A DNA stretch of 64,000 nucleotides from Xestospongia muta (taxonomy: Eukaryota; Porifera; Demospongiae; Haplosclerida; Petrosiidae). Positions 12,456-63,303 of this stretch are shown piece by piece (position 1 is the stretch's first letter; each line of letters begins with the position of its first letter). Both the position numbers and the translations under genes were made by a program. The DNA is taken from assembly GCA_963693285.1 (NCBI GenBank), contig OY848917.1:2234501-2298500 (forward strand), written 5' to 3'. The notes under the pieces were generated by a model that was given only the letters and a program-made list of their open reading frames with translations, was not told the DNA's origin and ran no database searches.

Positions 12456-14117
12456 TTACACTCCAATAAAGATCACATCTTTGTCATCATTTGTATTTGC
12501 ATTATCAAGCACTCTCATATAATTATCTACAACTATGTTTCTCATGTAAATCTCATTACTTTCCTCTCTTTGTCTTTGCTTATACCATCTTGAAGCAACA
12601 AGATAGGTTATTAGTCCAAATATGCATATAAACAACTGAATTAACAAACTCCAAAAACTACAGGAGAGTTTTCCAGGACCATTTAGGTCCCAATATGTGA
12701 ATGGAATTAATAGGAACACTCCAATATTGATATATACAGCTCTTATTAACTTAAACATTCCTGTGAGCATACCACTCATATTAACAGGTGCTTGGCATGC
12801 TATAAATTCCAAAATGAAAATCAGACTTAATGCACCGACTAAACTTGAAAGTGCAAATGGAATGATGTAGTAAAGATATGACATGTTAATTACTTTACTT
12901 CCATTATGTAGGAAGCAACCTACTTCATCTTGAGTAATGAAATGTCCAACAGTATCAATTGTTATGATTGTGATTAGTGAAACTGTCATCACAATGTAAG
13001 TAATAGCAATTCCTTTGAGTGGGTTAAGAAGAAAATACTCAATTTTTGGAAAGAGAGGTATTATGATAAATTCTACAATTGGCACTACTATCACAATAAC
13101 TTCATCAAATGCAGTCCATACTACATATGACCCATAACCATTGAGTGTAGTAGTTGCTTCTTTAAGTCAGTTGGTGTAACGAAGAACTCCTAGTACAGTA
13201 ACGATAGTACACTATAAAGAAGCCAAATGTACTAAGCAAGACTGTAATAATCCTCCAAAATGTTTTAGTGTCTTCTATATCAATTTCTTTAAAAGGACCA
13301 CCATATTTTTCTTTACCCAGGTCAATACGACTTGGTATCTTGTTCTCCCAGTATGTTAAAGCACTCCAGTTCACTGGCGTCTTGTGTTGCCAGGCATACT
13401 TCAGGACTTGATACAACATCTTGTATGGATTTTTCTTTAATACTCCACTAAAGTTAAACTTATGATTTAGCCAACCATGAAGAATCAATGCTGTTGAAGT
13501 CACTAAAAATATCACCATTATTGTTATCATTAATAGCACTGGATTATAAATTGATTGAGGTACAAATGCAATATACCCAACGCAGTAGCCAATATAGTAC
13601 CCCCAAACAATCCAGTGAATAAAAGCCCTAGAATGTGTATGTGGTTTCTCATAGAGCTGATCTAGACCAAATGGAGGAATATTGGTAAATAAACCAGCTG
13701 TACCGACCATTAACAGCAGCAGTGCAATTACTGATATTCCATATTTGGCTATGTTAACTGGTAGTCCACATGTTCCATACTGAATGCAGTAACTAATAAC
13801 TTGAAGGACAGTTCCTAGCCAACAGGACCATAGACTCAAATGTATAGCTTTCTCCCGACCAATCTTGGTATCAGCTAACCAGCCAGTAAAAGGATAGAGA
13901 ATACAGAATATTATAAGTTGTAGCGTAGACGAAATGAACTTATGACCAGTGTTAATACTAGGAACAGGATAAAAACGGGATATTTCAGATGACGTACTTA
14001 ATGATAATATGATATTGAAGCCAAGATCACGCTAGCACCTACTACGATAGAATCAAGTACGAGGAGCCAACTCTGCAAGGTCATCAAACGATTTCGTAAC
14101 TCAATAGTGAACTTCAT
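12456..14117 (-). pseudogene. POT/PTR2-type oligopeptide transporter pseudogene (copy A)
   Basis: Nearly identical over its full length to the intact gene at 33732-35444, but disabled. Reading from the ATG at 14117, one base is missing near 14030 where copy B has 'atcaacgct' (copy A 'atcacgct'). A second single-base change, an insertion near 13197 ('cagtaacgata' against 'cagtatgata'), shifts the frame again. The remaining open segments (13162-13839 and 12456-13094) still carry the family segments ALTYWENKIPSRIDLGKEKY and FGLDQLYEKPH. POT-family proteins are proton-coupled di-/tripeptide symporters with 12 membrane spans. High identity to copy B indicates recent inactivation. Sequencing error is possible but would have to occur twice. 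Confidence 0.85.
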
Positions 14118-14189
14118 GTTTCTTGCCGAGAACATTACAAAGGCGTGACAGCAACCACAAATATATGAAATTTATTATTTTTATTATTA

Positions 14190-14310
14190 ACTAGTTATAA
14201 CAGTAGCATACGTAGTAGTACTAGTAGTACTATGTAGTAGTAATAATAGTAGTACTGGTAGTAGTAATAGTACTAGTAGTAGTAGTACTGATAGTAGTAG
14301 TTAGTAGTAC
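14190..14310. repeat. Degenerate TAG/TAC trinucleotide microsatellite
   Basis: Irregular run of tag, tac and taa triplets upstream of the transporter pseudogene start. The equivalent position upstream of the intact transporter (about 35470-35545) has a shorter version, so the array predates the duplication and has since changed length. Confidence 0.75.
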
Positions 14311-14591
14311 TATAAGTCTAATGACCTAGTACGTTTGTTTTAGTCTGATATAACAACATTACATATTTGTCTAACTGTTCGTTTTGTCAGCAACACAAAA
14401 TATCACAACAGTGTTAACATTTTAAAAGCCTTTCATCACATAGTAGTATATTTGTTCGATGCTAAAGTATTTTGAAATGTAATGTACTTACAATATAATA
14501 TTGCTATTTGGTACTCAAATTGACCTTCATGTTCTTATATTGATATATATTTGATCTTACATGTAAGTATCTAAAAACCATTTCAATATGA

Positions 14592-15620: not shown

Positions 15621-16625
15621 TTATAGAATCATACAATTTTCTACAAATTCATTCTTGATCAATTCATTTGCTAAATATAATCTACTTGATTGACGAATGA
15701 TATCATGTAAAGCCTTCTCATCTTCCTCTATTTGGGCTTTGAATATTTGTAAATATGCTGGGTTTTTATCTGTATTTGGAAACCCAACAGTGATAATTCC
15801 TTTACCCATGAATTGTGCAATATTTCTGGTTAGAGGATTTGTACGAAAATCTTCTATTATCTTTTCTCTCTCCTCAGCAGTCTCACATTCACAATGAGTG
15901 ATGACTAAAGCAGATATATCTTTAGCATATTTACCAAATTGGCTGATTATATACTCCAAATATTCTTTTTCCTCCCTAGTGCACCTCCCCTTTTTGTATA
16001 CAAACAGCACTAAGCTGATCCCTTCAGGAATATTGTTAGTAATATACCTTCTCACTTTGTTTGCAAAATTTCCTGTAGCGTATAGCCCCATAGTATCAAT
16101 TACTTTAAGCTGAAGCCATGTGTTCATTTCAATTTGGGAATGATTTTCTTTATGAGTTATCCATTCTTGGCTGCTAGGTTCACTACACTCAATAAAATGA
16201 GTTTCTCCAAGAATATGGTTAGCAACGGTAGATTTTCCACATCCCGTTTTTCCAACTATTAATACATTGCACTGTTGGATATTAATTCGAGGCAAATCAT
16301 TTGTCGTAGAGTAAGTTGCATTTGTTTGAGTGACATTTTGTGCTATTCCTTGAGTTGAAGAAAACTGATAACTTTCATCATTTACTGCTGTCATTTTTCT
16401 GGATCTTTTCAATGGATCTGATACCAAATTATTGTCTGCTAAGAAATCAGAAGCCATTACACTTCTATCAAAATTTTCATTAGGTTGTGTGACATACTGT
16501 TGGTGAAGAGACAAAAACAAATGCATAACTAACGAACTTAAACTTTGCTCTAAATTCGCAATTTTAGTATCATAGCTCCCACAAAATAGGCAACTATATT
16601 TACTATTATACACTATAAACTTAAA
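15621..16625 (-). CDS. Terminal exon of the chimera: AIG1/GIMAP-like GTPase domain
   Basis: The largest exon of the gene (334 residues plus stop) holds a short CxxC-containing segment (CLFCG), a Ser/Thr/Asn-rich linker and then a complete G domain. Visible motifs are G1 GKTGCGKST, switch/G3 DTMGLYATG, and the AIG1-family hydrophobic segment before GRCTREEKEYLEY; G4 is THCE in place of the usual (T/N)KxD-like motif, and a GF pair marks the G5 region. The best match I can give is AIG1/GIMAP, a family of immune-associated GTPases that often oligomerise on membranes. The degenerate G4 makes nucleotide specificity uncertain. No C-terminal membrane anchor is visible. It follows a phase-0 intron and could also be expressed alone from a downstream promoter. 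Confidence 0.82.
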   Translation of the reverse strand, partial: FKFIVYNSKYSCLFCGSYDTKIANLEQSLSSLVMHLFLSLHQQYVTQPNENFDRSVMASDFLADNNLVSDPLKRSRKMTAVNDESYQFSSTQGIAQNVTQTNATYSTTNDLPRINIQQCNVLIVGKTGCGKSTVANHILGETHFIECSEPSSQEWITHKENHSQIEMNTWLQLKVIDTMGLYATGNFANKVRRYITNNIPEGISLVLFVYKKGRCTREEKEYLEYIISQFGKYAKDISALVITHCECETAEEREKIIEDFRTNPLTRNIAQFMGKGIITVGFPNTDKNPAYLQIFKAQIEEDEKALHDIIRQSSRLYLANELIKNEFVENCMIL

Positions 16626-19600
16626 CTTAGAATGTTATGCAAGTTCAAGTAATACATAAAATGAAAAGCCAGTTCTACATATTGCAATAAATTATGAAAA
16701 CATTATATCCCATAAATAAAAAAGATACTCACATTGTTCTCATCTTCAAAATTTTCAATATTCTCATTGCCTTCAATTACAACAATTGATTGAGTACTAC
16801 AGATGGATGGAAAAGTGGGAGGAGGTGCTTGATACAATGAATTATCATCATCCTGTAAAATATGTGAAAGTTAGAGACCAAAACGTGTAAATTACAATTG
16901 ACAACCGTAAATAGAAATATTTAATATCAAATATTAAATGTAGATTTTTAGAAAAAATAACTGTTGATTTCTATATACATTGCTATTGTTACAGTTCAGG
17001 TATTATGATAGTAATAGGCTTTATTGCAAACATTTGCATTCATTTGCCTCAACGTACATAATTATTTAGTCTTTTATACACATCATTTCTTATATCATTT
17101 CCCTTATTTATGAACTCCTTATTCTGTCCACATAATGTATATAGATATTAGTAGTATTCTATTACCATCTGTAAATTATCCAACAAAATCGATGAAGTAT
17201 GTGCTTGTTTTAAATAAGAGACTTCCAATTCTAATTGAGATATTGTATCCTAAAGGATTAAAAACATCGCAATATTATTTCAAGTAATCTGCTTGGATCA
17301 CTTGATAAGTCTTATGGCATTCTTGAATCCTCTTTTCCAAGTCAAAGTTCGCTTGTTCTTGAAGTTCAAGAGAGGTTTGTAACTGAATAATTTGTTCTTC
17401 TAAGCTAAACTTTTCTAGTACCTAAATGTGTAACAACAAAACTATTAATCATGTCATCAACTGAAAAATGTTAAATGAAATTATTACTTTAACCACCAAT
17501 GCTGGCAACCAATTACTTTTATGAGCTATGGTGGGTACTGCCAATCAAGCCAATAAGAGCCAATAAGCCAATCCCAATAAGAAATTTTATAAATTACCTC
17601 TTTCTCTTTCTTAGAGAGTTGCTGTTCTAAAAGTTCAGATTTCTCTTGAAGTTGTATCATTGTTCTCTTTAACTCTTCACATTGACGACTGTAAGCTTTA
17701 ACTTGCGAGGTCAACACTAAATTGTCTTCCTCCAAAAATTTCATTTTGCCTTCCTTACTTTCCATTAAAACATTTACATCTTCAAGAGTTGAGTTTTGTT
17801 CTTTAAGTGTCTCAATTTGACTTTGAAGCTCTTCAATTTCTTTGGAATGTTTTTGATGAATTACCTTGAGAGTCTGTGTTTTATCTTTTTTTGCACGTTG
17901 AATGGCCCGATCAAATTTTTGTTGCAATTCATGAACAGCATCTTCCCTTGCAATTAACTGAGCTCTTAAATCATGAGTAATTTGTTGACTTTCTTCTAAA
18001 TTGATTTTTAGGTCAGAATGGACTTTTTCTTTTTCTTCTTTATTTCGCTCAAAATTTTCTTTTAATGTAGCAACCTATAAAAATAATGAATCAATATTAA
18101 TGATGAGGTTACCATTTACGATGTTGAAGTTTTAGTTTTGTGAGTTATATTCATGTTTTTTTCCTCATTTTTCATTAAAAAATATTAAGAAATAAATATT
18201 AAATTTGTTAATAAATAGAGTCACTATGTTTAGTTGATTTTATGCTTTAATTAATAATATGATCATATGACACACCTGCTACAATGTATAAATAATTCTA
18301 TGAAAGAGTTAAAAACAGTAGGCAATTTCTTTTCAGTATTTTATGCATACTTAGGATGATTTTAACATGATAAGCCTATATTACACCGTATGTAGAACAA
18401 AGGTCATGGTCATACAAATATTAACAGTAAACATCATCATTGTGGTCAGCAGTGTCTCCAATGCTTTAAAAGAATTTAGTCTTTAGATGAAGAGAATTAT
18501 TGTCTCTATATCTAGATATAGAGACAATAATTCTCTTCATCTATTTAGCTCAACCTTTACCCTAAAACTCTTAAATAAACAATCATGAATTGCTATATGA
18601 GTGTGATTATTTTGTATTGCTATTCTTTAAAAGAGCTGATGAAGGATTTAAACTGAAACATCTTGTAACTCTTATCAAAATAAATTTCTATGATGTTCAT
18701 AAAGCTCAATTAATCAACTAATAATAAGTATACATGTAATATGTTTATTAAAAAAATCACCATTGTAATAGTAGTTTCTAAAGAGTGTTATTTTCTTCAA
18801 ATAATGATTGTATTACTAAGCTAGCTCGTCCTCATAGGCTTGTCAAAATGGTGGAATGGCTAGCTTTCTACACAATCATTGCAATCATATAATTAAATGT
18901 CAATATTCATTTTAATATAGCAAGTAACACTAACTTAAAATCACTTATATAACTTCAACAAAGATAACCATGACTTTAAAGAAAATAGAAATGAATATAG
19001 GAACCAAGCAAGGGATGATAATACAAAATACTTAGAATAATTACATAACGTAAATAGAACTGGCACAGAACTTAATCTATTATTAATTCATAAGTTTGTT
19101 TTTACTAGTACTCTTAAATCACAAGTAATATTTTAGCAATTTAGGGTATATAATCATTCTCAGTAGATTATATAGCCATTTCTACTTGCATTTGGGCATT
19201 GCATGTAGCACACAAACACACACACATTTTGCTTTTAAAGTTTAATTACTCGTATTACAATTTATGTAATGCTTAACCATATAACAGCATCAACTAATTA
19301 AGAAAGGAAGCAAAGAAACTGCAGAAAAGTAACAGAAAATTGCTAGAGAAATATGTAATCATGCAGTGATTATATAACCCTTTATAGCACTAGAGAAATT
19401 CCTTTGATTGTACACTGAAGCAAGTATATACCTTTGTGTTGTCACAAACTGTTAATATAGCTACATTTTACTTCATTACTTTATGAAGTTGTTTATATCA
19501 TTCATGCATACTCACAGAAGCCAAAGATAAACAAAACTATGGTGTTATTGTAAATATAGTGTGCCTGTATTGCTATACCTCCATTTCTTTGCGATAAATT

Positions 19601-22600
19601 TGCTCTTCTAATTCTAGAGATTTTTCTTGAAGTTGAACCACTGTTTCTTCAAGAGTCTGAGTTTCATGATTCTTAACATTAATTGCCTGGTCCATTGTCT
19701 GCTGCAAATCACGAGTAACATTTTCACTTTCAACTAATTGAAATGCTAAATCAGACTGAATTTTCTTTTTGTCTTCTATCTCCTGCTCCAGCTCCTCGTT
19801 TAAGGAAATTATCTATACAAGTACAAATCAGAAATTATAATCCAAATTTCTTGAATTTATAGTACAATATGGTACATGCAAAGTTCATAATTTACGTATA
19901 CCATCTTAGACTTGCATTAAGTTTTCAGATATGGGATATACACAATGTTGTAGTCATGTTTTGATAGCAGTCTTCTTTAATGTTCTTGTGAATGTTCATA
20001 CACCCTGACTGGACTAGTATTAGTTTTGTACTACAATATGTAAGTAGATTAAAGGCATGTCTGATATCATCATTATGTTGACATAATCACAACTATTTTG
20101 CATTTTATCAAATGTGCATTAATATAACTTTGTGCATGTAAAATCATCATGCTTGATCTCAGGAAGATAATGAACATCCTGTTTTTTTTAAGAAAGTCTC
20201 TAAAACCAAGGCTTCTTACTGAGAGCATCACATCATCATCAAGTCAGTGTAATGGAACAATAGGAGTTACCTGTGATTTAAAAAACAGCTTCTTCTGGTA
20301 TATATGGCAAATTTGAAATAATGAAATGTGGTTGAAACAGACTACAAGTTCTTTCATCCATTAAAAGACTTAATTTGTATTAAATTTACACGTACATGCA
20401 TACTTGTTTTGGGGTTTTATAATTTTATTGCACAAAAACCCTGAGTAATAATTTTAATCACTGAGATATCACACAGTATAGTGGATAAACCACTCTACTG
20501 TATATTATTTAATGTATTAGGGAGTTAAAAAAGCAGCAAAGATATGATGACAGAGACCTACATCTAACTTTGAATATTATTTTTATATTTATAGGCATAA
20601 AGAATTGTCACATATACAATGCTATTATATATCATTACTTATTTACTCAGAATAATAACTACAATTGCTTACTTCTGCTTTGGTAGCTTCTAATTGCTTG
20701 GTGATATCATCGATCTCTAGTAGTTCACCATTTATCATAACTTTGTCATTAGGCATTTGAGATGTAGCATCCTTTAATTGTTGTTCTAAGCATGAAACAG
20801 TTTGAGCTTGGGCAGTTAGTAGTTGACTTTGCATTGCTATTTGCTCATCTTTTTCTCCTTGAAGTTTCAGCAACTCTTGCTCTTTTTGAGAGAATTGGTT
20901 TCTCAATTCATAGATTACTTTTTCTTGATCAGTTTTAATAACTACCAGTTCACCTAATGTCATTTTTAGTTGACAAATTTCTTCCTTCTTTTCTTTTAAA
21001 ACATCATTAGTTTTATCAGATTCTTTCTTGATTAACTGCAATTCCTTGAAGAATAGAAAACATATCAATAATTTGACAGTAACATTATTAGTACATCAAT
21101 AAACTAAACCATAAAAAATAATACACAACATTAAAGCACATTCGATAATGAAAATTGGAAAAGACTTTGGGGTGCCTTACTTCAATGAAATATTTTTATA
21201 AAACTAAGCTTTAACTTCAAAAATTATTTAGCAAACCAAATTAATGAATTTCATTGTAAGATATTCAAAATTCAGTGTATTGTTATTTGTTAATATTCAT
21301 TATATAATAATGTATATGCCTTACAGCAGTAGATTCTATCATAATAACAAATAAAACCAACCAAAACATTAGATTATATGTTGTTTATACAAGATATACA
21401 ATAAAAACATAAAGCATAAAGCATTTATAGTTACATACATTTTCTTTTAAATCAACTGTACTCTTATATTCTCTCAGTTTATTCTCCATTATCTGCAATT
21501 AAAATAAAAAGTTAAGTTAAGTAGAATAGTGTTTAAAAACACTCTTCATAGTGACATACATTACTCTAAATGATAATTATAATAAGTTGCTACTGCATCA
21601 AATTAGCATTATTTGTAAAGCAAAAAGCAATTGCAAGCATAAAAATGCTTTGGAAAAAGGTGAATCAAGTGTTGAGTGTTGGCAAGTTTATGTGATTCAG
21701 TCAGTAATGACGCACATGCACTCAACATGTAACAGAATATAAAGCATACTTCTCACAACATTAAATGAAAGATTTGAGGCCTCTCTAGTCTTTTAAATAG
21801 CCAACAGACAAATATATATGCTTTATCATACCATGCATTGGTCTGTACCTTTAACTGTTCCTGCTTGATCTTAGCATCTGTCTTTATATTTTCTTGCAAT
21901 TGACCAACTTTTATGCAAAGCTTTCCATTCTCATGACCTTTGTCCTAGTACAGAAATAAAAAATTATATCACTGGCATAATTATAGTAACCACTTAAAAT
22001 TATCTATATATTGAATATGTATTAATTTAGTTTAAAACGTAAGTCATGGAAATTAAATCTGTTGCATTTTGAATTAGGATAAATATAACAAAAACTTGGC
22101 CCTTACCTCAATTTTTTGGTTGATTTCAGCTATAAACTCTTTCTGCTTTTCACATTCTAATGTAGTTTGCTGTAATTTGATCATCACTTTGTCGTAATGA
22201 CTTTGTAAAGTTTGATTAGATTGTTTGAGGTCATTGTTTTCACCACTATAATCTTTTAGTTGCTTTTTCATGTCTTTTTTATCAGCTTCTAATTTTGATA
22301 TCCGGCCATAGAGAGCTTTTATTTCCTCCTCCTTCTCATCTAGCTGAATTAAACACTCTCGAAGTCTATCTTCATTACTTAAACTGTCAATCGGGATACC
22401 TGCTATGTCATCAAGCAGAGCCTGTAAAATTAAAAAGTTATAATGATAGAGAAATATTGAAAGCATCCCTGTTGACACTTGAGCAATAACAACAAAAAAC
22501 ATGATTTCATTCATACATAGTACAAATGGTCTAAAATATATATTGAACTAGAATAGTAAACAGAAATTTATTTTAGTATACCTTGTTCAGTTTAGCAGTT

Positions 22601-25600
22601 TGTTTGCTTTTGAACATCGAAATAAGTGAAGTCCATTCTTTTTTGACTTTCTCGACATCTATCCATTCTGGTGGAAAATCATAATGATTCCTCTCTAAGA
22701 CATTTTGTCCAGATAAAAGAACTTCAACTTCACTTTCCCAACAAATTAAATTTCTTTTGAAAAGTTGAAGCAGTTGAAAGTCTGCTATTGATGATGGATC
22801 ATATGAATAGCTTTCAAGATTAGTACGAGCCTATAGTGAAACTGTTTACTGCATCATCTCTGATGGAATTTACCTTAGAGAAAATCTTGATAAAATCTTG
22901 TATTTTTTGTCTAACAAGGCTGCCAAAATGACTCACTATCTTCGCATGCAATAAATCATGCCTCACCAAAACTTCTGTCTGAACCTAATTTTAAGATAAA
23001 GCATAAAAATTATTACATGATTTCTATATACTTGTCCAAAATGTATATAGACAGGACCAAAAGCTTTTTTAGTCTCAGTAGTATCTAAAGAGCGACGTGA
23101 TTTCCTATGAAAGATGGACAAATAATCATCAATTTGAATTCTCAGAAATCCTTACTCATTTACAGTTAGTTACACATGCATTTAGTAGCTTTAATCATGC
23201 TAGTTCTTTCTATAGGACATTTCCTTTCATTGTATTTAAAACAACTAAACTGTAGCTTACATAGGTTGACTATTATGAAATCATGTGAAGTATTTATTCA
23301 CTATTTTTAGTATACCATCAATTGCACAGTACACAATACACATGCATCATGATTCCATAGTAACCACACTGACACAAACTTCAAGTTTGTTGCAAAGAAA
23401 CTAGATAATTATATAGTGATATACAGCCTCTGTCTAAAATATATTGGTTAAATTAGCAGCAACTTATATCTTGCAAAATGACTACAATCTTACTCCATAT
23501 CCTTCAAAAAGTGCTGCCAAAGTTGTAGGTCTTCTCCAAGTTGAGAGGTGAACTCCTTTAAATTTATGTTCCATAAACTATGGCATCGTATCCACTTCTA
23601 TATTTGTGAGGAAGAGCTTTAGATACCCAAGTTTTCAATGTTTAGTACCTTGATGTATGTGTTAATCTCTCTGAATAAATCTTCAATAGCCCTATATGCT
23701 TCAAGTATAGGGTCAGGTTTTTCTTTCATCTTCTCAAGTAACAAAAAGGGAGAATCTTCCAATGTTTCACCTTTCGTTAAACCAACCTGTCTTATAAAGT
23801 AATTATCACATAGTAGTTATATCGAGATACCTGGCAGTCATTATACTGTATCTTTTGTAAACTAGTAACTTCACTAATCCATTTCTGAAGTTGAGTTGTG
23901 AAGTGGCACCGAGAAAACTCCAGTGGAGGTTCCAAATACATCATGTGATCATTAACAAAAAGTTCATGACAAATAGTCTAAAAGAATTTAACATAAAGTC
24001 TCCTTAATAATCCATACTTTAATTTTAGGGCCATTGTCAACTTTTTCTTGAAAAATCATTTGCTCTGGAATGGTGTTGATAGTAAACAAAGAGTCCATGT
24101 CCTGCCTTAAACTGTCTTTCCATGCACTAATGGCAAATACTAGACGAGACATCAGTGTCTTCTCAACCTAAATATACATGTATTATTTAGGACCATTTTA
24201 GAATTGATTTGACATTTACTTCTTCATTAAGATATGAGAGCCATGTTATTAAATTTGTATAAGAATGAAGACTTAAATGGTCAACAACTTCCTGCATTTC
24301 ATTCAGTAGTTTAGAAAAACAAATGAAACTGAATTCACAAGTATGCAGTCTGGCAGCTAAGGCAAAAATTTGCTTAGTGTGATAAAGAGCACCATCAACC
24401 TACATAAAATAAACATGTAATGTAGCTTATTCATTATATATTAGTTAAGTGGTTTATAGCTTTTCCAGCACAATAAATATGTTAAGACAACAACATAGTA
24501 TTTGGGTTCACTTTGTGCTAAAATTTTCTGACCAGAATGATAATTAATTTAATTTAATAGTGATCAGGCACAAGACAAGTACACAAGGTGAGCATCAGTA
24601 GTTTTTATTGTTTATCTGTGTTAAAATGAAATCAGAGTCTACTAATTGCAAGTTAACTTCCTGGAAGCAAAGCTAGATGTTCTTTGTTTAACTACCTCCT
24701 AGAAAGGAACAATGATGGTGCAATCACAAATTTCATTTAATCCATCATGCCTATTGCTGCATTAATTTTCACACAGCAAAGTTGCTTTAAATATAGCAAA
24801 TATACCACTGTTAATGTCTTTGAATTGCTACTGCTTTAATTAACATACGTACCTTCTCCTGAAAATCAAAAACACACTTTGAAAACTGCTTAGTAAAAGG
24901 TTCCACTTTATGGGACTCCCATGTCAGGCAACTGCCCTGTAATGACTCACATGATATCAGTTAATGCAAGGGCTAATTACTTCTTTAATATTATCTTCTA
25001 CTTCAGTTCTAAAACCAGCTACTAATAGATGAATAGCTTCATGAGAGTTAATCTGGTGAAATAAAATCAGTTCAATGCAAACAATAATATTTGTACACAC
25101 TATAATCATGAAAAATGTTCTAAGATTATTTTGATGGTGCTGTTGTAATTTGTGCGAGACTAGATTTTCACTAACATCAAAGACTGGTGAGTAGGCAGAA
25201 GCTACAATGTTCTCTTGAGTTTGAAGTTAGTCAAGTCTAATTAAAAAAAGGGATTGACCAATCCTGGACTTATATTTATTTATTAGTAACACTCTTACAT
25301 ATCCCTTTCAACCCAAAAAATATACTGCTTCTGTTCATATATATGAAATTTTTAAGTGTAAAACAGTAATTATTTTAGCTTGTGTTATATATTTTAACAA
25401 TATTTACAAGCTTAAGCAAATAAATCATTATTTCATGGGCATGCAATAGAATAAGCGGAATTTTATGAAATTTCAGAAACTTTGGCTGTATAGCAAGTAT
25501 ACTAAAATGCAGAGGAATACAGAAATTGTAAGAATTTTGAACCAATATTTGGGGATTTTACAAGCCAAGATGTGAAATTTCAAGGAGTTGCACCACCCCC

Positions 25601-28600
25601 TCAAGCTCAGAAGGTCTTTAAGAGCATAAACTTACTGTTTGACAAGTAACTTGATACGCTTTAATGCTTTCTTTCAGAGACACTGCTAAAGGATATAAGA
25701 TATGAACTTGACTGGCCATTTGGGATATAATAAATGGAATTCGAAATCCCGTTCTACGAAAATAACAAACCTAGAACTCATATATTAAGACTTCAACTAA
25801 AATATCACTTATGAATACCTCTTTAAAAAGGGAGATAGTTTCTTCATTGAAATTAACAAAGACCTTGAAATGAGATTCTGTTTCCTTTACTTTAGAGAAA
25901 ATAAGTCCTTCAGGAACTTGCTGATTAGATTCAATCTAAAGATAGCATTAGTATTACTTCAACTTTTTAATGTCACAAACCTTCCTTTTCCAGTCATTAA
26001 ATAACGGAGTAACATCAAGTTTACTTTTTAAAGACTCTCCCAAAGAGCTCAGTTCCTGACCATCAATGTTCATCTTCCAATCTGTTCCTAAAACATCTTC
26101 AGCACGTTGTAAACATTTGTCCACCTGATGTGCAATCTATAAAGACAAGGTTATTATTTATCATAACTTATTACAAAGAACAGACTTGTGTCATCCACAT
26201 TGCTGTCGAACAAATTGGGGGAATATCTAGCTTACAGCAAATAGCATAGGTAGACGTTTTCTTATACTGCATCTAGTGAAAATAAGAAATCAGTATTTAT
26301 ATTAAAACTACCCTAGAAGAAAAGGAAAAAGACTGAACAATTAGATATAACAAACAACCAGGGACTGTAATACCATATAGCTGGAAACATTCAAGGATGA
26401 AAACTTTCGCGAATTTCGCAGTTTTGTCTTGATTAGCGAAAGTTTTACTCACGAAATTTAAGAGGCGCGTCTTTGGGAGTGGCCAATATAGCACATTCCA
26501 CTATTAAAAATGTTATTGTTGAAGTACTTTCATCCACAGGCTTCTAACTCTGTTCTTCCAAAATCTGATGGAATGCTCTCTTCTGTAATACCTTGTTCCA
26601 GCATAGTAGCTGCCAACCATGAAGTAAAAAAGGTGTTGGAAAGTTCGGGGGATTCGCCAAGTAAGCTGCTGAACATGGCGTGACAGCTTCGATTCGACAC
26701 TTTACGAAAGTGTACCCAGGACGTTTGCAGAAGGAAAGCAGTGTTCGTATCCGGAAGATGAATTACTTGAGGGAATTATCATTGAGGAAAAATGGAGGGA
26801 AAGGCACTGATGTTAAAGAGCTTCTTGGCAAGAAGATAGGCTGTCCATTAATACATGGTGAAAATCTAGATAACCAGGTACAGGAGTATTTAAGATCACT
26901 TCATTCAAATGGTGCTGTTATTAATACTGCTATAACCATAGCTTGTGCAAAGGGTATTGTTAAAAATTACAACAATAACCTTCTTAAGTGCAATGGTGGC
27001 CATATCTCATTGACTAAAAATTGGGCAAAATACGTGACAAAACGTATGGGGTTTGTGAAGAGACGAGCAAGCTCAACGGCAAAAGTTTCTGTCAATGATT
27101 TTGAACGCTATTGACTACAGTTTATCTTTGATGTGAAGGAATTAATCATATTGGAAAATATTCCTAGTGATTTAGTGATAAATTGGGACCAAACTGGTAT
27201 ACAGGATGTCCCAGTATCTAACTGGACAATGGCAAAGGAAGGTTCTCATTGTGATGAAATTGTTGGTAAAGATGATAAAAGGCAAATCACGGCAGCTTGT
27301 AGTGGCACCATGTCTGGTGATTCCTTCCCTTGCAACTTATCTACCAAGGGAAAACTACGAAATCATTTTCTGGTTCCTCAACCTTGGTCTTCTTTTCCTG
27401 AAGTTCACTTTCAGGCTTACATGGCTTTAGCAGACCAGAATCCAGTGCTTCTTTCAAGAGGATCTTCACCCTGGCAATGAGGTTTGCTTCATTTGAAAAG
27501 GTCAGCTTACAAGGTATCTCAAGGCCACCTTGGGGCAGATGGGCTGAATACTGTTTTGTACCGATTACCTGGCATGTTAATGTACAATTTCTCCATAGAA
27601 ATGAATAGCAAACCAAGGATATTGCACGGGGAACTTGTCCTACTATAATCTCAACATTTACAATAGAAACAGCGTAGGGATCATGGATGTTACCAGGTTC
27701 CCACTGGCATAGCAGAATTTGTCCAATTGCACCATTCCAAATGTTCCTGTATACGTGATACCCTCTTATAACAGCTGCTACAGGGTAACTGTCCATCACG
27801 TACACACACGTGTGGTGATGGACCCCGCCTTTAACATAACCCACCAACCCCACTCTTTTACCCACACCACCACTACATTCGTGAAAAATTTATTTAGCGA
27901 TATTCTTTTTCTTATTTATTCACAAAAGTATTGATCCTCGAAAGTTTTAAGCTATACTGTATTACTTCATTTAGATGAATAATAATGAATAAGTATACCA
28001 AGTTAACTTATAATTATTTAACTACTTTTTTAGTGACAAATCATTTTGAGATTGATTTAAGCTTAATATAATGACCCTGCATGTTGTGAAGCTATATGCA
28101 TTTAGTCACAGTTGCACTTCAGATGCTATATTTTTATGTGTGGTCACTATAATTTATTGAGGCTGTATATTGTAATATCACTATAGTGATGTGATCTAGT
28201 ACAATTATTTATGGCAGAATATAAGCAAAAGTATCACCATAAAAATAAGTTATAATACTAGGATTTGTCATAAAAGAAAATATGAATGCTTAATCACTGT
28301 CAGTAAATGATGTCTTTATTTTTATTTATCCACACTTTCAGCGTAACAGATATAGTGATAAAAAACACACTTTGAGAAATCTTACAGTTATGACTATATC
28401 CCAGTTTTCCATAGCGAGGTCTGTCAATGTTGTTGCTTGAATGATAAGAGAATAATTCTGATGTTACTATAATTCAGAAACTTCAACCTGACCAATCAGA
28501 TTACTAGACATTACATTACCTTTAATTACCTGTGGTTTATTTAGCAGGCTCACTTATCAACCTGCTAAATCAATTAAAACCCTTCATTGAAGGCATTCTC

Positions 28601-31600
28601 CCTTTGTGTTATTTCTGTTATCACTTGGTTAGCTATACAACTAAAAAAGTTTAGTATATTATCTAATGTCTAAGCCCATGAATCATGTACACTTACGCAT
28701 CTTCATTATTCTTTATCAGCCATCCTGTTATTATTTACTAAACTCACTCAAGTTTGACTTTACACATTTATTTTAACTACAACTTTGCCATCCACTTGAT
28801 AGAGATTAATTTTAACACAATTGGATTCATCTCATTCTTGTGGTTCTTACAATAATATTCACAAGATGATTACTATTTTCTAAGTATTCTTTTTGACAAC
28901 CCTTCAATAAATTTATGTGTATTATCATTTCTTGAAAGAAATCATTTCTATCTATAAAATCAACAACAATGGAGAATGGTCTCACCTAACAAATAACATT
29001 TACAACCATATGCTTTAAAGCCAACTCTGACTTCATTATTTCAGGGTTAATAATTACCAAAAGTTCACATTATTTAAGAATTGCTTAAGGTCATCAATTT
29101 TTATTACTGTTAATTAAAATTAAAATAATCACAAGGTCTAGTACTCCCAATATTTAGGCACATATGTAGCATAATCATAAAACCTACCTTAGCTTTCTTA
29201 TGAAGAGTTTCCAAATTGTTTTGAATATATTGAATTAATATAGGTCGATATTCACATATGGCTCCACGAATACGAGGACGTGAAAATAAAGACTTAATGC
29301 GGGAAATGATGTGAAACATTTTAACAGAGTTGTGAGCACATCCAAGTTCTTCCTGTAGTTTTACAAAAATTGTAGTCTCTGCATGATAAACTCTTTCATC
29401 ATATCTATAGAACCAGTATGCATAATAATTATGTAAATATAAATAAGTTCATACTTAGTGATAGCAGCCTCCAAAATATTAGACCCTACTTCAGACAGGT
29501 CTAGGCAATCTACAACTGCAAGGCTATCATAAGCTATACGAATGTCTTTCTCTGCCTGAAGTCTTTCACCATCAATACCAGCTAAAAATTCCTACATAAT
29601 ATAAAATGTATTAAAATTGTCAGGTGTTATATATATTAGGTGAAATTTATGTACTAATATGATTATCATATGAAAGAAGATGCAAGGAAGGCAATGCCAA
29701 AAGTACAGAAACAAGGATGGAATGTATTAGACAATCCTAACATAAGAACCAATGCATCAATGTAGTCAAAAGTACTATGACTAAAGTAACATAATTTTCT
29801 TTTGACCAATGCCACTTGCATAGAGACAGTATAGTTAATTTGTATTTATAGTACATGTCAGCCAATTTTTATAGATCTATCTCTACATCTTAAGCATTAC
29901 TCAATGCTTAATAATATACTGTAGACCTTTATGCTTCCATGCATAGCTATTGTTGCTATGTGACCAAAAATCTAACTTCTTCATATGCACTTATTGTCAA
30001 GTACCTGGCATTTTATTAACGTTTAACTTACAGATTTAGATCCACTTAATTGACAAGACTTTGACACACAAGTAATGGCAGTTATAAGTTGCTCATGTTG
30101 GGAACGAAATCTAAAATTAAAAAATCACTTATTTTTAATGAATTTGTCTATTTTACTTTGTCAATATTTCCAGTCGTGTCTCTAGTTCCTTGTGAGGTAA
30201 ATTAAAGTAGAAGTGGAATCTTACAGTCTTACTATTTTGTCTTTTAAATACTTCTCGTAATAAAACTTTAAATTTCTCAAGCTCATCGTTCCATACTGAA
30301 ATCACCTCAGAAAATTCATTGACCACTTTTGAAAAATTGTCAAAAGGAATTATCATAAGTTTTTGTCTCTTAAGAACCCAGAGACTTTGATTAAGAAGAT
30401 CTCGAGAAATAGCCTCTATCAATGATATTGCTCTTTCAATTGGATAGTTAGTGCAACGAATTTTGCGTAAATGAACGAAAATAGCTTCAATTGCTGTTAT
30501 AATGGATGATAATGTGTCTGCAGCATGCAGATCCTTTACAGGAAAATCTTTCATCAATACCATATAATCATTTACATGATCTTCAATATCTTTAAGACCA
30601 GTGTCAGACTCAAATTTGATGACAGTATTAAAACGTCTTTTTGCTTTTAGCGCATTGAGAGTCAATACAACCTCTGGACACTCTAGTTGAGATCTCAAGG
30701 AAGCAACCGCATGTCTTAAGCTAACCCAAAAGGTGATTTCCTGTATTACACTTCCTACAGAGACATCTTGTGGCAATTTCGTAACCTATTGTATGAACAA
30801 TGCATTAGGTATATACTGTAAAATAACAAAAAAGGTTAACTTTCAATTCACAAAATATATGTCATAATAACATTCATGGACCATTTACAAGTGGGGCTAA
30901 GTATGTATGTTTTTTATCTTCTAAAGTAAACCAATTATTTAAAAAGAGAATGGTTCACACTAAAACATTAGACTGAAATCAAAAGAAAGGAAGTTGTATC
31001 TGAGGAGTGACTATAATTATATAGGTATAAAAAATAAAAATATAAATTTAAAGGTAAAACCAGTTAACAAAAAGCTGTGAGCCTTCAAAGCACAAACAGT
31101 CACTCATATTACTGAAACCCTACAATTACAGTTAAAGAAATGCTTTGGTTGCCATATATGTTATGAGTTAAAGTATGCAGTTTAATTTTAATTGTTGCTC
31201 ATACATGTCCCATACTATAGTAGAATAAAACAAAACAAAAAAAAAACATATGAACATACATTCAAAAACACTTTTAGGACTGCCTCACATGCTTTGTGTG
31301 CAGGTAGTCTAAACGTATTTATAAGTTCTATATGTGCTAAAACAATGCATTTTACATATTTGAAGCAATGTCTAAAAGTATATTCTATATTTGTCTGTAT
31401 ATATTTAAGAAGCATGTAAAGTATGCAAATAGGCTTCCTTATTTCAAAATGGCACAATATTACCTTTAGCATGTACTCATTAACGACATCTAACACAAGA
31501 ATTTCAAATACTGACTTTGTGTATTTCTGTAACCCATGTAGCAACTTGTTTTTGTAAATTATTGAGAAACGTAGAGTCAGCAAGATGAGTTTCAATATCT

Positions 31601-32321
31601 TCAATAACAGGTCGTCGACCTTGCTTGATTGCTTTCATTACAGCCTCAGTAATAATCGGATGACTTAACAATCGAACTTCAGGTATGGCTGTGTTTCGTT
31701 GTAATTGAACTAATCCATATGATAAATCACTCATGTTCTTTTGTACAAAAGAGACGAGTTTGTCATCCCTAACACAAAGAAAGTGTTACATTATTCCTTG
31801 ACAAAAAATGTAAAATCACTAACTCACCTTTTCTCTCTACATGATTGTTGAACAATTAAATTGAAGTAAGGAGAAATAGTATAATCAATGTAGGAATGAA
31901 TAGTTTCAAATGGAGACTCCTCTGAAATCATTAAGAATCTCAACTGGGTCTGGATTGGTTTATCAGACACAATAATAACCCCACGTTTACTAAAAATAAC
32001 ACCAACACATCGTTGTGTACAATAATGGACACCTAAATGAATATCAAAGGTTGGCAAACAGAAGGGAGTAAGATCAGATGAGCTATCAGAGTCTTCAAGA
32101 GGTAATCTATATAGAACAGACAAAGTATGTTCTTGATAGCATTCTATAAATTTCTGAAGCTTTGCTTTGTCATCCTCGTTGTCTTTCAGAATTGACTGTT
32201 GTAAGGTAATGACTGGAACTCTCTTTGTACTATCCAGTAGGGGCGTTAGTACTTTCACCAAGTACGAAGCAAGCTGTTTGATATCTACTAGACATTCAAC
32301 TGAGGGTACTTCTTTGGCCAT
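15621..32321 (-). CDS. Chimeric protein: dynein-1 heavy-chain tail + coiled coil + AIG1/GIMAP-like GTPase (30 exons, no motor)
   Basis: Thirty exons with GT-AG borders join in frame to 2162 codons. Exons 1-10: 31828-32321, 31516-31768, 30157-30785, 30032-30110, 29455-29591, 29188-29404, 26186-26272, 25981-26136, 25819-25935, 25636-25770. Exons 11-20: 24981-25052, 24853-24936, 24220-24399, 24018-24167, 23831-23977, 23649-23786, 23494-23597, 23032-23104, 22874-22984, 22582-22830. Exons 21-30: 22107-22421, 21849-21944, 21439-21492, 20673-21044, 19579-19812, 17598-18074, 17302-17421, 17166-17249, 16733-16852, 15621-16625 (acceptor 16619 is also possible). Residues 1-1204 follow the cytoplasmic dynein-1 tail (DHC_N1) in order, e.g. 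SRPRIRGAICEY, TKKAFGPVYIHFGQ, ERNHYDFPPEWID. Coiled coil is about 1205-1790. The GTPase has P-loop GKTGCGKST (about 1953), DTMG, GRCTREEKEY and a weak G4 (THCE). Linker and AAA+ motor are absent. Function unknown; the tail could dimerise or bind dynein intermediate chains (inference). Confidence 0.88.
18075..19578. other. Intron 25 of the chimera (1.5 kb) with a perfect palindrome
   Basis: Long intron between coiled-coil exons 25 and 26. It contains a 60-bp perfect palindrome at 18484-18543. The exon-proximal part (18075-18330) is duplicated, together with exon 26, at about 32930-33430. No gene is seen inside it. Confidence 0.7.
18484..18543. repeat. 60-bp perfect palindrome without spacer
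   Basis: The two 30-base arms (18484-18513 and 18514-18543) are exact reverse complements, meeting at 'atatctagatat'; the next base pair outward (18483/18544) does not pair. The RNA or single strand would form a 30-bp hairpin. It could be a small hairpin element or the record of a recent inverted duplication. Confidence 0.95.
19813..20672. other. Intron 24 of the chimera (0.86 kb)
   Basis: AT-rich intron with no coding potential that I can support; no clear repeat structure. Confidence 0.6.
26680..27480 (+). pseudogene. Pogo-type transposase, interrupted and truncated
   Basis: Two consecutive frames (26680-27114 and 27133-27480) lie in the same register and are separated only by a TGA at 27112-27114. 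The first half looks like the N-terminal DNA-binding part (basic, with NWAKYVTKRMGF). The second begins the DDE_1 nuclease fold (NWDQTGI, DKRQITAACSGTM) but ends before the second and third catalytic acidic residues. Non-functional. Confidence 0.78.
27341..27865 (-). CDS. HIRAN-domain-like protein encoded inside the transposon
   Basis: 174 residues, no intron, running tail-to-tail into the transposase frame. The segment AAVIRGYHVYRNIWNG, then GQILLCQWEPGNIHDPYAV, then VGQVPRAIS has the spacing of a HIRAN domain, known from HLTF-type helicases where it binds 3' DNA ends, and also seen alone in mobile elements. The last 30 residues, charged and ending DFVVFPW, overlap the antisense of the transposase and may not be part of the original protein. 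Whether it is expressed is unknown. Its position inside the TIRs argues that it travels with the element. Confidence 0.6.
   Translation of the reverse strand: MGKRVGLVGYVKGGVHHHTCVYVMDSYPVAAVIRGYHVYRNIWNGAIGQILLCQWEPGNIHDPYAVSIVNVEIIVGQVPRAISLVCYSFLWRNCTLTCQVIGTKQYSAHLPQGGLEIPCKLTFSNEANLIARVKILLKEALDSGLLKPCKPESELQEKKTKVEEPENDFVVFPW
30786..31515. other. Intron 2 of the chimera (0.73 kb)
   Basis: AT-rich, contains an A-rich run near 31229-31250; no gene supported. It separates exon 2 (ends ...TEIHK) from exon 3 (begins VTKLPQDV), a junction collinear with dynein-1. Confidence 0.6.
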
Positions 32322-32482: not shown

Positions 32483-32929
32483 ATACTTGATAGCTTGCTT
32501 CAGTGCGACTTTGAAAGTTGATAGACAGACACCTGCCGAGCTCTATAACTTACATTCCGAGGAGTGATATTAATTAATAGTCCACCTTCTTGTTAACCCA
32601 ACACCGTCACTCTGTACCGAGTTTGCAAATTTTTCACAAGCACTACTGGAGCTGTTGAACACCCACACATGGTAAACCACAACACTTATATGCTTATTAT
32701 AATGTAATAAACATATATGTTGTCAATACTTTTAAATGTATTTTGAAGGCATATATGCAACTTAAGTGAGTTTTAAAGTCATCAAAACAACCAATATATT
32801 TTTAACAATGATATATAACTTCTATGATGCACATGACTGACATCATTAACCTTGCTGTCATTATTAATAGGTCTATAAACATTATAACCTGCCAATTTGT
32901 TCCCCTTAATTTCTATTTAAGCAGTTATG

Positions 32930-33430
32930 TCATCAAGAATTAAATTTTGTCCTTTAAGTGTTCCAATTTGACTTTGAAGCTCTATAATTTCTTTGTAATT
33001 TTTTTGCTGAAGGAAATACCTTCAGAATCTCAATTTTACCTTCTTTTCTCACATCAAATGGTCTTGTCAAATTTTTGCTGAAATTCACGAACAGCATCTT
33101 CCATTGTAATTAACTGAGCTTTTAAATAGCAAGTAATTTGCTGGTTTCCAGCTGAATTGATTTTTAGATCAGAATGGATTTTGTTGTTGTTCTTTCTATT
33201 TCAGTAAAAATTGTCTTTTAGCACTAATGATGAGGTTAATTTCATTAAGATTTTTAAGTGGTTTATTTATTTCTCATTTTTCAAAAAATGTATTTTTAAA
33301 AAAATTACATTAGATTGTTAGTATATAGAATGACTACATTTAGTCAATTTTAATTATGCTTTAGCTTATTATTATGATCATGTGATACGCTTGCTACATC
33401 AGATAATTTTATCCTATGAAAAAATTAAAA
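32930..33430 (-). pseudogene. Relic of the chimera's coiled-coil exon 26 and its upstream intron
   Basis: 32930-33230 aligns with 17750-18060 (exon 26) and continues into 33230-33430, which aligns with 18090-18330 (the adjoining intron). Indels and stops abolish the frame. Because intron sequence is included, this is a DNA-level duplicate. It sits between the start of the chimeric gene and the 3' end of the intact transporter. Confidence 0.75.
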
Positions 33431-33731: not shown

Positions 33732-35444
33732 TTAACTTACACTCTCTACAATAAAGATCACATCTTTGTCATCATTTGTATTTGCATTATCAAGCACTCT
33801 CATATAATTATCTTCAACTATGTTTCTCATGTAAATCTCATAACTTTTCTCTCTTTGTCTTCGTTTATACCGTCTTGAAGCAACAAGATAGGTTATTAGT
33901 CCAAATATGCATATAAACAACTGAATTAACAAACTCCAAAAACTACAGGAAATCTTACCAGGACCATTTAAGTCCCAATATGTAAATGGGATTAATAGGA
34001 ACACTCCAATATTTATATATATAGCTCTTATTAACCAAAACATTCCTGTGAGCATACCACTCATATTAACAGGTGCTTGGCATGCTATAAATTCCAAAAT
34101 GAAAATTACACTTAATGCACCAACTAAACTTGAAAATGCAAATGGAATGATGTAATAAAGATATGACATGTTAATTACTTTACTTCCATTATGTAGGAAG
34201 CAACCTACTTCATCTTGAGTAATGAAATGTCCAACAGTATCAATTGTTATGATTGTGATTAGTGAAACTGTCATCACAATGTAAGTAATAGCAATTCCTT
34301 TGAGTGGGTTAAGAAGAAAATACTCAATTTTTGGAAAGAAAGGTATTATGATAAATTCTACAATTGGCACTACTATCACAATAACTTCATCAAATGCAGT
34401 CCATACTACATATGATCCATAACCATTGAGAGTAGTAGTTGCTTCATTAAGTGAGTTGGTGTAACGAAGAACTCCTAGTACAGTATGATAGTACACTATA
34501 AAGAAGCCAAATGTACTAAGCAAAACTGTAATTATCCTCCAAAATGTTTTAATGTCTTCTATATCAATTTCTTTAAAAGGACCACCATATTTTTCTTTAC
34601 CCAGGTCAATACGACTTGGTATCTTGTTCTCCCAGTATGTCAAAGCACTCCTGTTCACTGGCGTCTTGTGTTGCCAGGCATACTTCAGGACTTGATACAA
34701 CATCTTGTATGGATTTTTCTTTAATACTCCACTAAGGTTGAACTTATGATTTAGCCAACCATGAAGAATCAATGCTGTTGAAGTCCCTAAAAATATCACC
34801 ATTATTGTTACAATTAATAGCACTGGATTATAAATTGATTGAGGTACAAATGCAATATACCCAATACAGTAGCCAATATAGTACCCCCAAACAATCCAGT
34901 GAATAAAAGCCCTAGAATGTGTGTGTGGTTTGTCATAGAGCTGATCTAGACCAAATGGAGGAATATTGGTAAACAAACCAGCTGTACCGACCATTAACAG
35001 CAGCAGTGCAATTACTGATATTCCATATTTGGCTATGTTAACTGGTAGTCCACATGTTCCATACTGAATACAGTAACTAAAAACTTGAAGGACAGTTCCT
35101 AACCAACAGGACCATAGACTCAAATGTATAGCTTTCTCCCGACCAATCTTGGTATCGGCTAACCAGCCGGTAAAAGGATAGAGAATACAGAATATTATAA
35201 ATTGTAGTGTAGATGAAATAAATTTATGATTAGTGCTAATACTAGGAACAGGATAAAAACAAGATATTTCAGATGAAGTGCTTAATGATAATATGATATT
35301 GAAGCCAAGATCAACGCTAGCACTTGCTACGATAGAATCTAGTACGAGGAGCCAACTCTGCAAAGTCATCAAACGATTTCGTAACTCAATAGTGTACTTC
35401 ATATTCTTTGACAAAATCACTCTAAAGGGCGTGACAGACAACAA
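33732..35444 (-). CDS. POT/PTR2 (SLC15-type) oligopeptide transporter, intact copy B
   Basis: 570 residues, single exon, about 12 hydrophobic spans: the size and layout of a proton-coupled oligopeptide transporter of the major facilitator superfamily. Family-like segments include GWLADTKIGREKAIHLS after the second span, FGLDQLYDKPH, and the cytoplasmic loop YWENKIPSRIDLGKEKYGG. Translation may begin at the first ATG (35444) or 14 codons later at MKYTIELRNRL, the start shared with copy A; the second is more likely because only it is conserved. Substrate is presumably di- and tripeptides (family knowledge). Flanks on both sides match those of copy A at 12456-14117, so about 3.5 kb was duplicated together. 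Confidence 0.88.
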   Translation of the reverse strand: MLSVTPFRVILSKNMKYTIELRNRLMTLQSWLLVLDSIVASASVDLGFNIILSLSTSSEISCFYPVPSISTNHKFISSTLQFIIFCILYPFTGWLADTKIGREKAIHLSLWSCWLGTVLQVFSYCIQYGTCGLPVNIAKYGISVIALLLLMVGTAGLFTNIPPFGLDQLYDKPHTHSRAFIHWIVWGYYIGYCIGYIAFVPQSIYNPVLLIVTIMVIFLGTSTALILHGWLNHKFNLSGVLKKNPYKMLYQVLKYAWQHKTPVNRSALTYWENKIPSRIDLGKEKYGGPFKEIDIEDIKTFWRIITVLLSTFGFFIVYYHTVLGVLRYTNSLNEATTTLNGYGSYVVWTAFDEVIVIVVPIVEFIIIPFFPKIEYFLLNPLKGIAITYIVMTVSLITIITIDTVGHFITQDEVGCFLHNGSKVINMSYLYYIIPFAFSSLVGALSVIFILEFIACQAPVNMSGMLTGMFWLIRAIYINIGVFLLIPFTYWDLNGPGKISCSFWSLLIQLFICIFGLITYLVASRRYKRRQREKSYEIYMRNIVEDNYMRVLDNANTNDDKDVIFIVESVS

Positions 35445-36374
35445 ACCACAAAAATTTGAAATTTATTATTTTTATTAACTAGTAGTAATAGTAGTATACG
35501 TAGTAATCGTAGTATACCTAGGAAGTAGTAATGGTAGTAGTAGATCTCTCAATAATAAGCATATCATTCACTTATTTTTGCCTATTACAGTTAATGATTT
35601 GGTATATTTGCTTTGGTTTGTTATAATCATATTTTATACTTGTCTAGCTGTTCATTTTATCAGCAATACAAAATATCACAACAGTGTTGATGTTTTAAAA
35701 GCCATTTATTGCATAGTAGTATATTTGCTCAATGCTAAAGTTAATTTTGAAATGTAATGTTACAGTATACACAATCACAAATAATATTAATATCTGGTAC
35801 TCATCAGTGACCTTGATGTTCTTATCTTTGCGATAAACTGATCTTACATGTAATTGTCTAAAAACATTTCAATGTTGTAAATATGTCTTGAATGATATTG
35901 TCCAAGACGTCATCACATTCACTTTCATTCATAATGACAATTAGTCAATGACAAGTGTCATATATAGAACATTATGTTTTGACTTTAGAAAATGTTATCT
36001 CTTCAGTTTATCCAAATGTATTAGCACTGGCAATTGAACAGATATACTTATTTTGCACACACACTCAAACGATACAAAACACTCACAACTGATTTTGTTT
36101 CCCAAACTTTAAATTTTAAAATTGTTATGAACTCCAAATAAGTTGATTATAATTATCAGATCTACATTATGATATAGATAGCACTTAAAATAAAAGTTGG
36201 ATAGTCATTGAGATATTTCATTATAATTGATTGTTTATCTAGTCAAACATTTCGCAAAAACTTTACAAGGTTTATATGTGTTAATATCGACTTGATAAAT
36301 TATTGCCAATCAACTATTTTGAACTGTGTAGCAAAATCACATCTTATAAATATATATATATTGTCTTTAAAACA

Positions 36375-62966: not shown

Positions 62967-63303
62967 AGACATGTCTCATTGTACACTAGTGCTATTCAGC
63001 CTATTATGTCCAGATAAAGGTAGGACATGTCTCATTGTACACTAGTGCCATTCAGTCTGTTATGTCCAGATAAAGGTGGGACATGTCTCATTGTACACTA
63101 GTGCCATTCAGTCTGTTATGTCCAGATAAAGGTGGGACATGTCTCATTGTACACTAGTGCCATTCAGTCTGTTATGTCCAGATAAAGGTGAGACATGTCT
63201 AATTGTACACTAGTGCCATTCAGTCTGTTATGTCCAGATAAAGGTGGGACATGTCTAATTGTACACTAGTGCTATTCAGCCTATTATGTTGGGACAAAGG
63301 TCA
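62967..63303. repeat. Six tandem copies of a 56-bp unit with a p53-type half-site
   Basis: Units start at 62968, 63024, 63080, 63136, 63192 and 63248, exactly 56 bp apart. Each has (R)GACATGTCT, TACACTAGTG and TATGTCCAGATAAAGG; the first and last units are the most diverged. RGACATGTCT fits the p53-family half-site RRRCWWGYYY in every copy. Confidence 0.9.

Follow-up and report, generated by a model that had tools for sequence, protein, structure and literature searches.

A predicted motorless dynein-1 tail joined to a coiled coil and an AIG1/GIMAP-type GTPase in the sponge Xestospongia muta

The sponge Xestospongia muta carries, on the minus strand of the 64,000-nucleotide stretch of contig OY848917.1 that we analysed (positions 2,234,501 to 2,298,500; hereafter the window, with C1 for the contig), a 30-exon gene model in which the tail of a cytoplasmic dynein-1 heavy chain runs in frame into a coiled coil and an AIG1/GIMAP-like GTPase, with no dynein motor. 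The model spans 32321..15621 and comprises 2,114 codons and a stop, with no internal stop. A first-pass annotation, made from the letters of the window, had described such an open multi-exon frame, and that observation stands: the frame is open and both DHC_N1 and AIG1 score above their cut-offs. The proposed architecture (dynein-1 tail, coiled coil, GTPase, no motor) and the suggestion of a motorless partner of dynein are likewise supported; the accompanying idea of intermediate-chain binding is the weaker half of that earlier inference, because exons 5-6 have diverged more than expected. We tentatively propose, with somewhat less than even confidence, that the predicted product is anchored to a membrane at its GTPase end and likely grips the native dynein heavy chain at the other.

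Results

The gene model and its surroundings

All 29 introns of the model have GT-AG borders and 25 of them are in phase 0; since most introns here share this phase, the in-frame joining of adjacent exons is in itself weak evidence. The reconstruction agrees with the first-pass annotation in the number of exons (30, of them 20 dynein) and in the junction 22582/22421, and gives 2,114 codons where 2162 had been counted. The last acceptor had been placed at 16625, which extends the last exon by 43 codons that score like intron (-0.057 bits/codon), and this extension was rejected in favour of the better supported 16496. A 31-exon version that includes 28985-28851 is also open (2,159 codons, or 2,202 residues and a stop with the acceptor at 16625); the additional segment was left out because it scores 0.007 bits/codon and has a counterpart in none of the five dyneins aligned. 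The principal features, in window coordinates and with C6 for the contig that bears the full-length dynein-1 gene described below, are as follows.

22582..32321, minus strand: exons 1-20, dynein-1 heavy chain tail, residues 1-1199; Pfam and PDB matches, collinear with the C6 gene
31516..32321, minus strand: exons 1-2, start codon and N-terminal dimerisation domain; match to PDB 5owo, 61% identical to C6
29188..29591, minus strand: exons 5-6, the part of the tail that has drifted; identity to C6 49%, compared with 68% between C6 and a fluke dynein
26137..28385, minus strand: intron 7, 2,249 bases, holding the open reading frame 27341-27865
22422..22581, minus strand: 160-base intron at the dynein-coil join, with an in-frame stop and AATAAA at 22572
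16733..22421, minus strand: exons 21-29, coiled coil and linker, residues 1200-1823; exons 21, 24, 25 and 26 match a cluster on C1
15621..16496, minus strand: exon 30, linker, AIG1/GIMAP-type G domain and stop codon
15813..16271 (C1:2250313-2250771), minus strand: AIG1 profile match inside exon 30, 69.2 bits in the genome profile search
15624..15635, minus strand: CaaX-like C-terminus CMIL; Cys at position -4 in relatives
32893..33220, minus strand: broken copy of coil exon 26 upstream of the gene; 77% and 80% DNA identity, stops inside

Codon usage was scored for each exon after training on the other exons, and the 30 kept exons reach 0.11-0.65 bits/codon, compared with an intron background of stop-free 40-codon windows with a mean of -0.04 and a 95th percentile of 0.20 bits/codon. 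Nine of the 30 lie under that percentile and are placed by homology. The coil exons all score at least 0.29 bits/codon, in part because the composition of a coil is itself biased.

The open reading frame within intron 7, which we had at first presumed to encode a HIRAN protein, matches no Pfam family at E <= 0.1, and that identity was dropped. Copies of a POT-type transporter gene lie on both sides of the fusion (12456-14470 and 33732-35741, with repeats 80-87% alike), which indicates that the locus has been duplicated and rearranged. Elsewhere in the window, two long plus-strand frames (7726-11301 and 60112-61512) have in common a CGQC/RGQC...GLSLKLGSN...C stretch and membrane-like segments, with Pfam giving a weak PMP repeat only for the former; a minus-strand frame at 56592-57278 matches CBM96 (40 bits, cut-off 26); and a tandem array of period 56 occupies 62968-63289 (5.8 copies, 96% matches).

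A dynein-1 tail beside a retained full-length gene

Exons 1-20 match residues 17-626 and 654-1231 of a dynein-1 heavy chain in the PDB with 821 bits. A profile search of the joined protein against Pfam, the check proposed with the first-pass annotation, bore out its domain assignments, with DHC_N1 at 229 bits (cut-off 28.3), AIG1 at 63 bits and every motor and linker family below its cut-off; the AAA_7 match, of 15.9 bits against a cut-off of 25.8, is sited on the P-loop of the GTPase. Residues 4-190 match the 201-residue dynein-1 heavy chain fragment of PDB 5owo with 82.5 bits; the dimerisation domain is identified by sequence only. In the genome profile search, none of at least 68 places matching AAA_6 is on C1.

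The same genome retains a dynein-1 heavy chain gene with its motor on C6. When the genome (28 contigs, 158 Mb) was searched with the tail, at least 30 matches were obtained, of which 18 lie in the window and 12 in a single C6 gene that is collinear with the tail between 8052084 and 8043426, is 42-64% identical to it and continues into AAA_6 motor pieces at C6:8039642-8038007; here and below, the genome searches score only the best candidates and their match counts are lower bounds. At least 56 DHC_N1 matches fall into 12 loci, 10 of which lie within about 25 kb of an AAA_6 match, the other two being the window and C4:9940242. The C4 locus (9940242-9940826) consists of one weak DHC_N1 piece of 35 bits with nine stops, on a contig with no AAA_6 match, and is either a relic or a poorly found gene.

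The exon borders that were checked, those of exons 1-3, 13, 19 and 20, agree with the C6 gene, and a processed copy was rejected because of this agreement. Exon 20 ends in EWTSLISMFKSKQTAKLNK before its GT donor and the C6 counterpart, equal in length and in phase 0, ends in EWSAFNDILKRKDGAMQSQ before its own, the distance from EW to the donor being 19 residues in both; beyond this donor C6 continues with dynein sequence, whereas the window continues with the coil. Since exon 20 ends at the same codon and in the same phase as in C6, the dynein-coil join uses an inherited splice donor. On the acceptor side, the counterpart of exon 21 in a coiled-coil paralogue (C1 2.54-2.78 Mb) likewise starts after AG in phase 0. 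With donor and acceptor both at inherited places, the join is thus as expected for recombination inside introns.

A coiled coil with local relatives

The coiled coil named in the first-pass annotation is present, and part of it has a local source that had been missed. Four of the nine coil exons (21, 24, 25 and 26) match a coiled-coil cluster 0.3-0.5 Mb away on C1; exons 22, 23 and 27-29 have no clear match in this cluster. A search with the coil returned 22 matches, 13 in the cluster, eight in the gene itself and one in the broken copy just upstream. The cluster (C1:2542788-2780621) consists of long coiled-coil genes with a zinc-finger-like end.

A GIMAP-like GTPase exon with a CaaX-like end

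The last exon matches the Pfam AIG1 profile with 63 bits (cut-off 27). Because this profile also matches 12 of 14 prokaryote control genomes, above cut-off in eight, the identity of the GTPase leans on the PDB and fold results: the PDB chains nearest by sequence are GIMAP4 and GIMAP7, and a fold search with a predicted structure returned GIMAP chains at all of ranks 1-20 (the model of the last exon has a mean pLDDT of 77 and is poor in residues 1-62 and 284-291). The P-loop GKTGCGKST and the DxxG motif (DTMG) are retained.

The protein ends in CMIL, in a region of low confidence in the structure model. A cysteine at position -4 is found in 51 of 57 AIG1-exon matches (a near-identical copy of this gene is among the 57), compared with two of 50 dynein exon controls, and CMIL looks like a prenylation box. 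This possible membrane end had not been listed in the earlier annotation. The Arabidopsis AIG1 family is counted among prenylated proteins in a review, of which we cite an excerpt (PMC6866125).

The nearest relatives of the last exon from another contig, P0010 and P0011, are 64-65% identical to it and apparently stand-alone, and the first residues of stand-alone AIG1 proteins align with an internal Met of exon 30. The genome holds 59 matches to the AIG1 profile, the one that also matches prokaryote controls, several of them in arrays (C13 3.84-3.96 Mb, C5 1.50-1.53 Mb and elsewhere). For another sponge, Amphimedon, AIG1 is reported as not found in excerpts of two papers (PMC3723955, PMC7053062).

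Selection and uneven change along the tail

Compared with the C6 gene over 838 of its 1,199 codons, in six regions from which the pieces of exons 10-12 were excluded (their alignments ran across introns), the tail has dN/dS values of 0.15-0.37 at dS of 0.80-2.22, so near saturation that the ratios are rough. Third codon positions differ most in each of the six regions. Judged by these substitution patterns, the sampled tail exons are under purifying selection; a decaying copy is ruled out for them by the dN/dS values.

Change is distributed unevenly along the tail when the identity of window and C6 is set against that of C6 and a fluke dynein (Paragonimus, P0001). In exons 1-2 the window and C6 agree at 146 of 241 positions (61%) and C6 and the fluke dynein at 98 of 244 (40%), whereas in exons 5-6 the corresponding counts are 61 of 124 (49%) and 91 of 134 (68%). 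The paired values are 56% and 50% for exon 3, 56% and 59% for exons 8-9, 51% and 43% for exon 13, and 50% and 58% for exons 19-20. Only exons 1-2 and exons 5-6 are significant alone, and the contrast between them has an odds ratio of 5.0 (p = 4e-7), with exons 1-2 differing also from exons 8-9 (p = 0.009), exons 19-20 (p = 0.0003) and exon 3 (p = 0.03); the p-values are guides, since they rely on a single outside dynein and on sites that are not independent. The likeness of exons 1-2 to C6 does not stem from recent copying, because their dS is 1.39.

By our own estimate from residue numbers, exons 5-6 presumably fall in the intermediate-chain region. In the human complex, as described in an excerpt of the structural report, the heavy chains dimerise via their first 200 residues, the intermediate chain touches bundles 4 and 5, and the light-intermediate chain touches bundles 6 and 7 (PMC5473941). 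Our reading of the uneven divergence is that the dimerisation domain has been kept near the native C6 heavy chain and would retain pairing with it. Intermediate-chain binding may have been weakened, and it is doubtful that the predicted tail binds intermediate and light-intermediate chains.

Relatives in other genomes

A whole-protein search over 5,424 candidates, with search words from the first 500 residues and limited candidate length, returned eight proteins, each of which has Pfam domains of dynein heavy chains and lacks AIG1; within this limited search the order tail, coil, AIG1 was not seen in a second species, which does not imply that it is absent elsewhere. Among the best 50 of 210 candidate matches to exon 3, none is on a contig of 172,687 bases, the length of the one bearing P0010 and P0011, which hints, without proving it, that the tail does not lie beside these two. 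Pattern scans of genomic contigs (22 matches) and viral contigs (23 matches) yielded no relative.

Discussion

The proposed function combines the two ends of the molecule. Were the 30 exons read as one transcript, the kept dimerisation domain would pair with the native heavy chain or with itself, and a prenylated CMIL would attach the GTPase to the membrane of an endolysosome, a phagosome or a comparable compartment. Assembly of the G domains, driven by GTP, could then gather or stall dynein at this membrane, separated from the G domains by a rod some 620 residues long. Given the drift of exons 5-6, pairing with the native heavy chain would be expected to outweigh intermediate-chain binding by the product itself. 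The outcome might be recruitment, that is, a one-motor dynein on the membrane, or a brake, and we rate recruitment slightly higher. In its fullest form, the proposal is that a dynein-1 tail was co-opted by an immune-type GTPase as the end with which to hold dynein, giving a rod that is switched by GTP, anchored by a prenyl group and paired with a native heavy chain, and that generates dynein with a single motor on selected membranes; we consider this possible but doubtful. As for precedents, GIMAPs and septins are described in an excerpt of one paper as nucleotide-regulated scaffolds on membranes, with dynein moving autophagosomes (PMC4239108), and GIMAP6 is recruited to autophagosomes according to an extract of another (PMC3804274). 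Vesicular GIMAP5 co-localised in human cells with kinesin and not with dynein, in the part of the study that we cite (PMC5293772), which counts against a general link between GIMAPs and dynein; the fusion would itself supply such a link.

With respect to the transcript, the window could hold two or three head-to-tail genes, namely a tail-only gene ending in the intron 22581-22422, a gene for a coil protein and a stand-alone AIG1 GTPase. Beyond exon 20 the frame stays open for two codons and then meets a stop, and with the AATAAA at 22572 a tail-only product is therefore possible; moreover, the aligned Met of exon 30 would suit a stand-alone GTPase, and with introns mostly in phase 0 agreement in frame comes cheaply. 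Nevertheless, we regard separate genes as unlikely, given that the dynein-coil intron measures 160 bases and has an inherited donor and acceptor, that exon 21 has no ATG at its start and its first Met well inside, that neither AATAAA nor ATTAAA occurs in intron 29, and that the hexamer after exon 20 has to be read against a local background of 52 AATAAA or ATTAAA in 19 kb, about one per 365 bases. An assembly error or a decaying copy would fit the rearranged state of the locus, with its broken coil exon copy, duplicated transporter and inserted intron sequence, but is very improbable in view of the tail dN/dS and the open frame; furthermore, the window is matched by two proteins of other assemblies, neither of which spans a join: P0009 matches the last exon at 99%, and P0066, from a contig of 1,029,327 bases, matches exon 3.

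With respect to function, the product might act as a decoy: by pairing with a native heavy chain or capturing the chains that partner it, it would reduce the activity of dynein close to the membrane on which the GTPase is located. Over-expressed dynein tails disturb dynein, and a retained dimerisation domain without a motor would be in line with this; yet a decoy would require neither the GTPase nor the anchor, and the drift of exons 5-6 speaks against the uptake of chains, which makes this reading rather unlikely. Still less probable, in our view, is a tail that has lost its association with dynein altogether and acts as an extended scaffold of the GTPase. Exons 5-6, diverged here although conserved between C6 and the fluke dynein, would be consistent with such a loss, but exons 1-2 are the best kept relative to expectation and purifying selection is indicated in every sampled region of the tail. 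We therefore continue to favour, tentatively, the membrane-anchored product that grips the native heavy chain.

If the gene is real, it would indicate that a dynein tail can be lifted out by recombination in introns and then kept by selection. It would also offer a natural experiment for distinguishing the tail regions needed for pairing from those that bind chains, and would tie to microtubule transport the AIG1/GIMAP family, whose role in invertebrates is termed uncertain in an excerpt of a review (PMC7053062). Were the proposed function true as well, the recruitment of dynein would be achieved within one protein rather than by a series of adaptors.

Comparison with known systems

None of the open-access papers searched describes a motorless dynein-1 tail fused to a GTPase. 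In relation to DYNC1H1, the gene model is collinear with tail residues 17-1231 of dynein-1 and lacks about 3,400 residues (the end of the tail, the linker and the motor), in place of which it has the coil and the GTPase. The coiled-coil paralogues on C1 have a last exon with a CxxC...H..C zinc-finger-like end, whereas the gene model has no such end; one of four paralogues tested matches the NEMO CC2-LZ profile below threshold (21.9 bits, cut-off 35.3), and the NEMO/optineurin CC2-LZ profile has no match in the fusion protein. Among AIG1/GIMAP proteins, a coiled coil beside the domain is also found in many AIG proteins, and for the AIG proteins of snails the same excerpt names death, kinase, ARM and Hint domains and not dynein (PMC7053062); to these the gene model adds a dynein tail of 1,199 residues. 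Thus, the parts are each known, and their combination, a motorless dynein-1 tail with a coil and a GTPase, is apparently new, at least to us.
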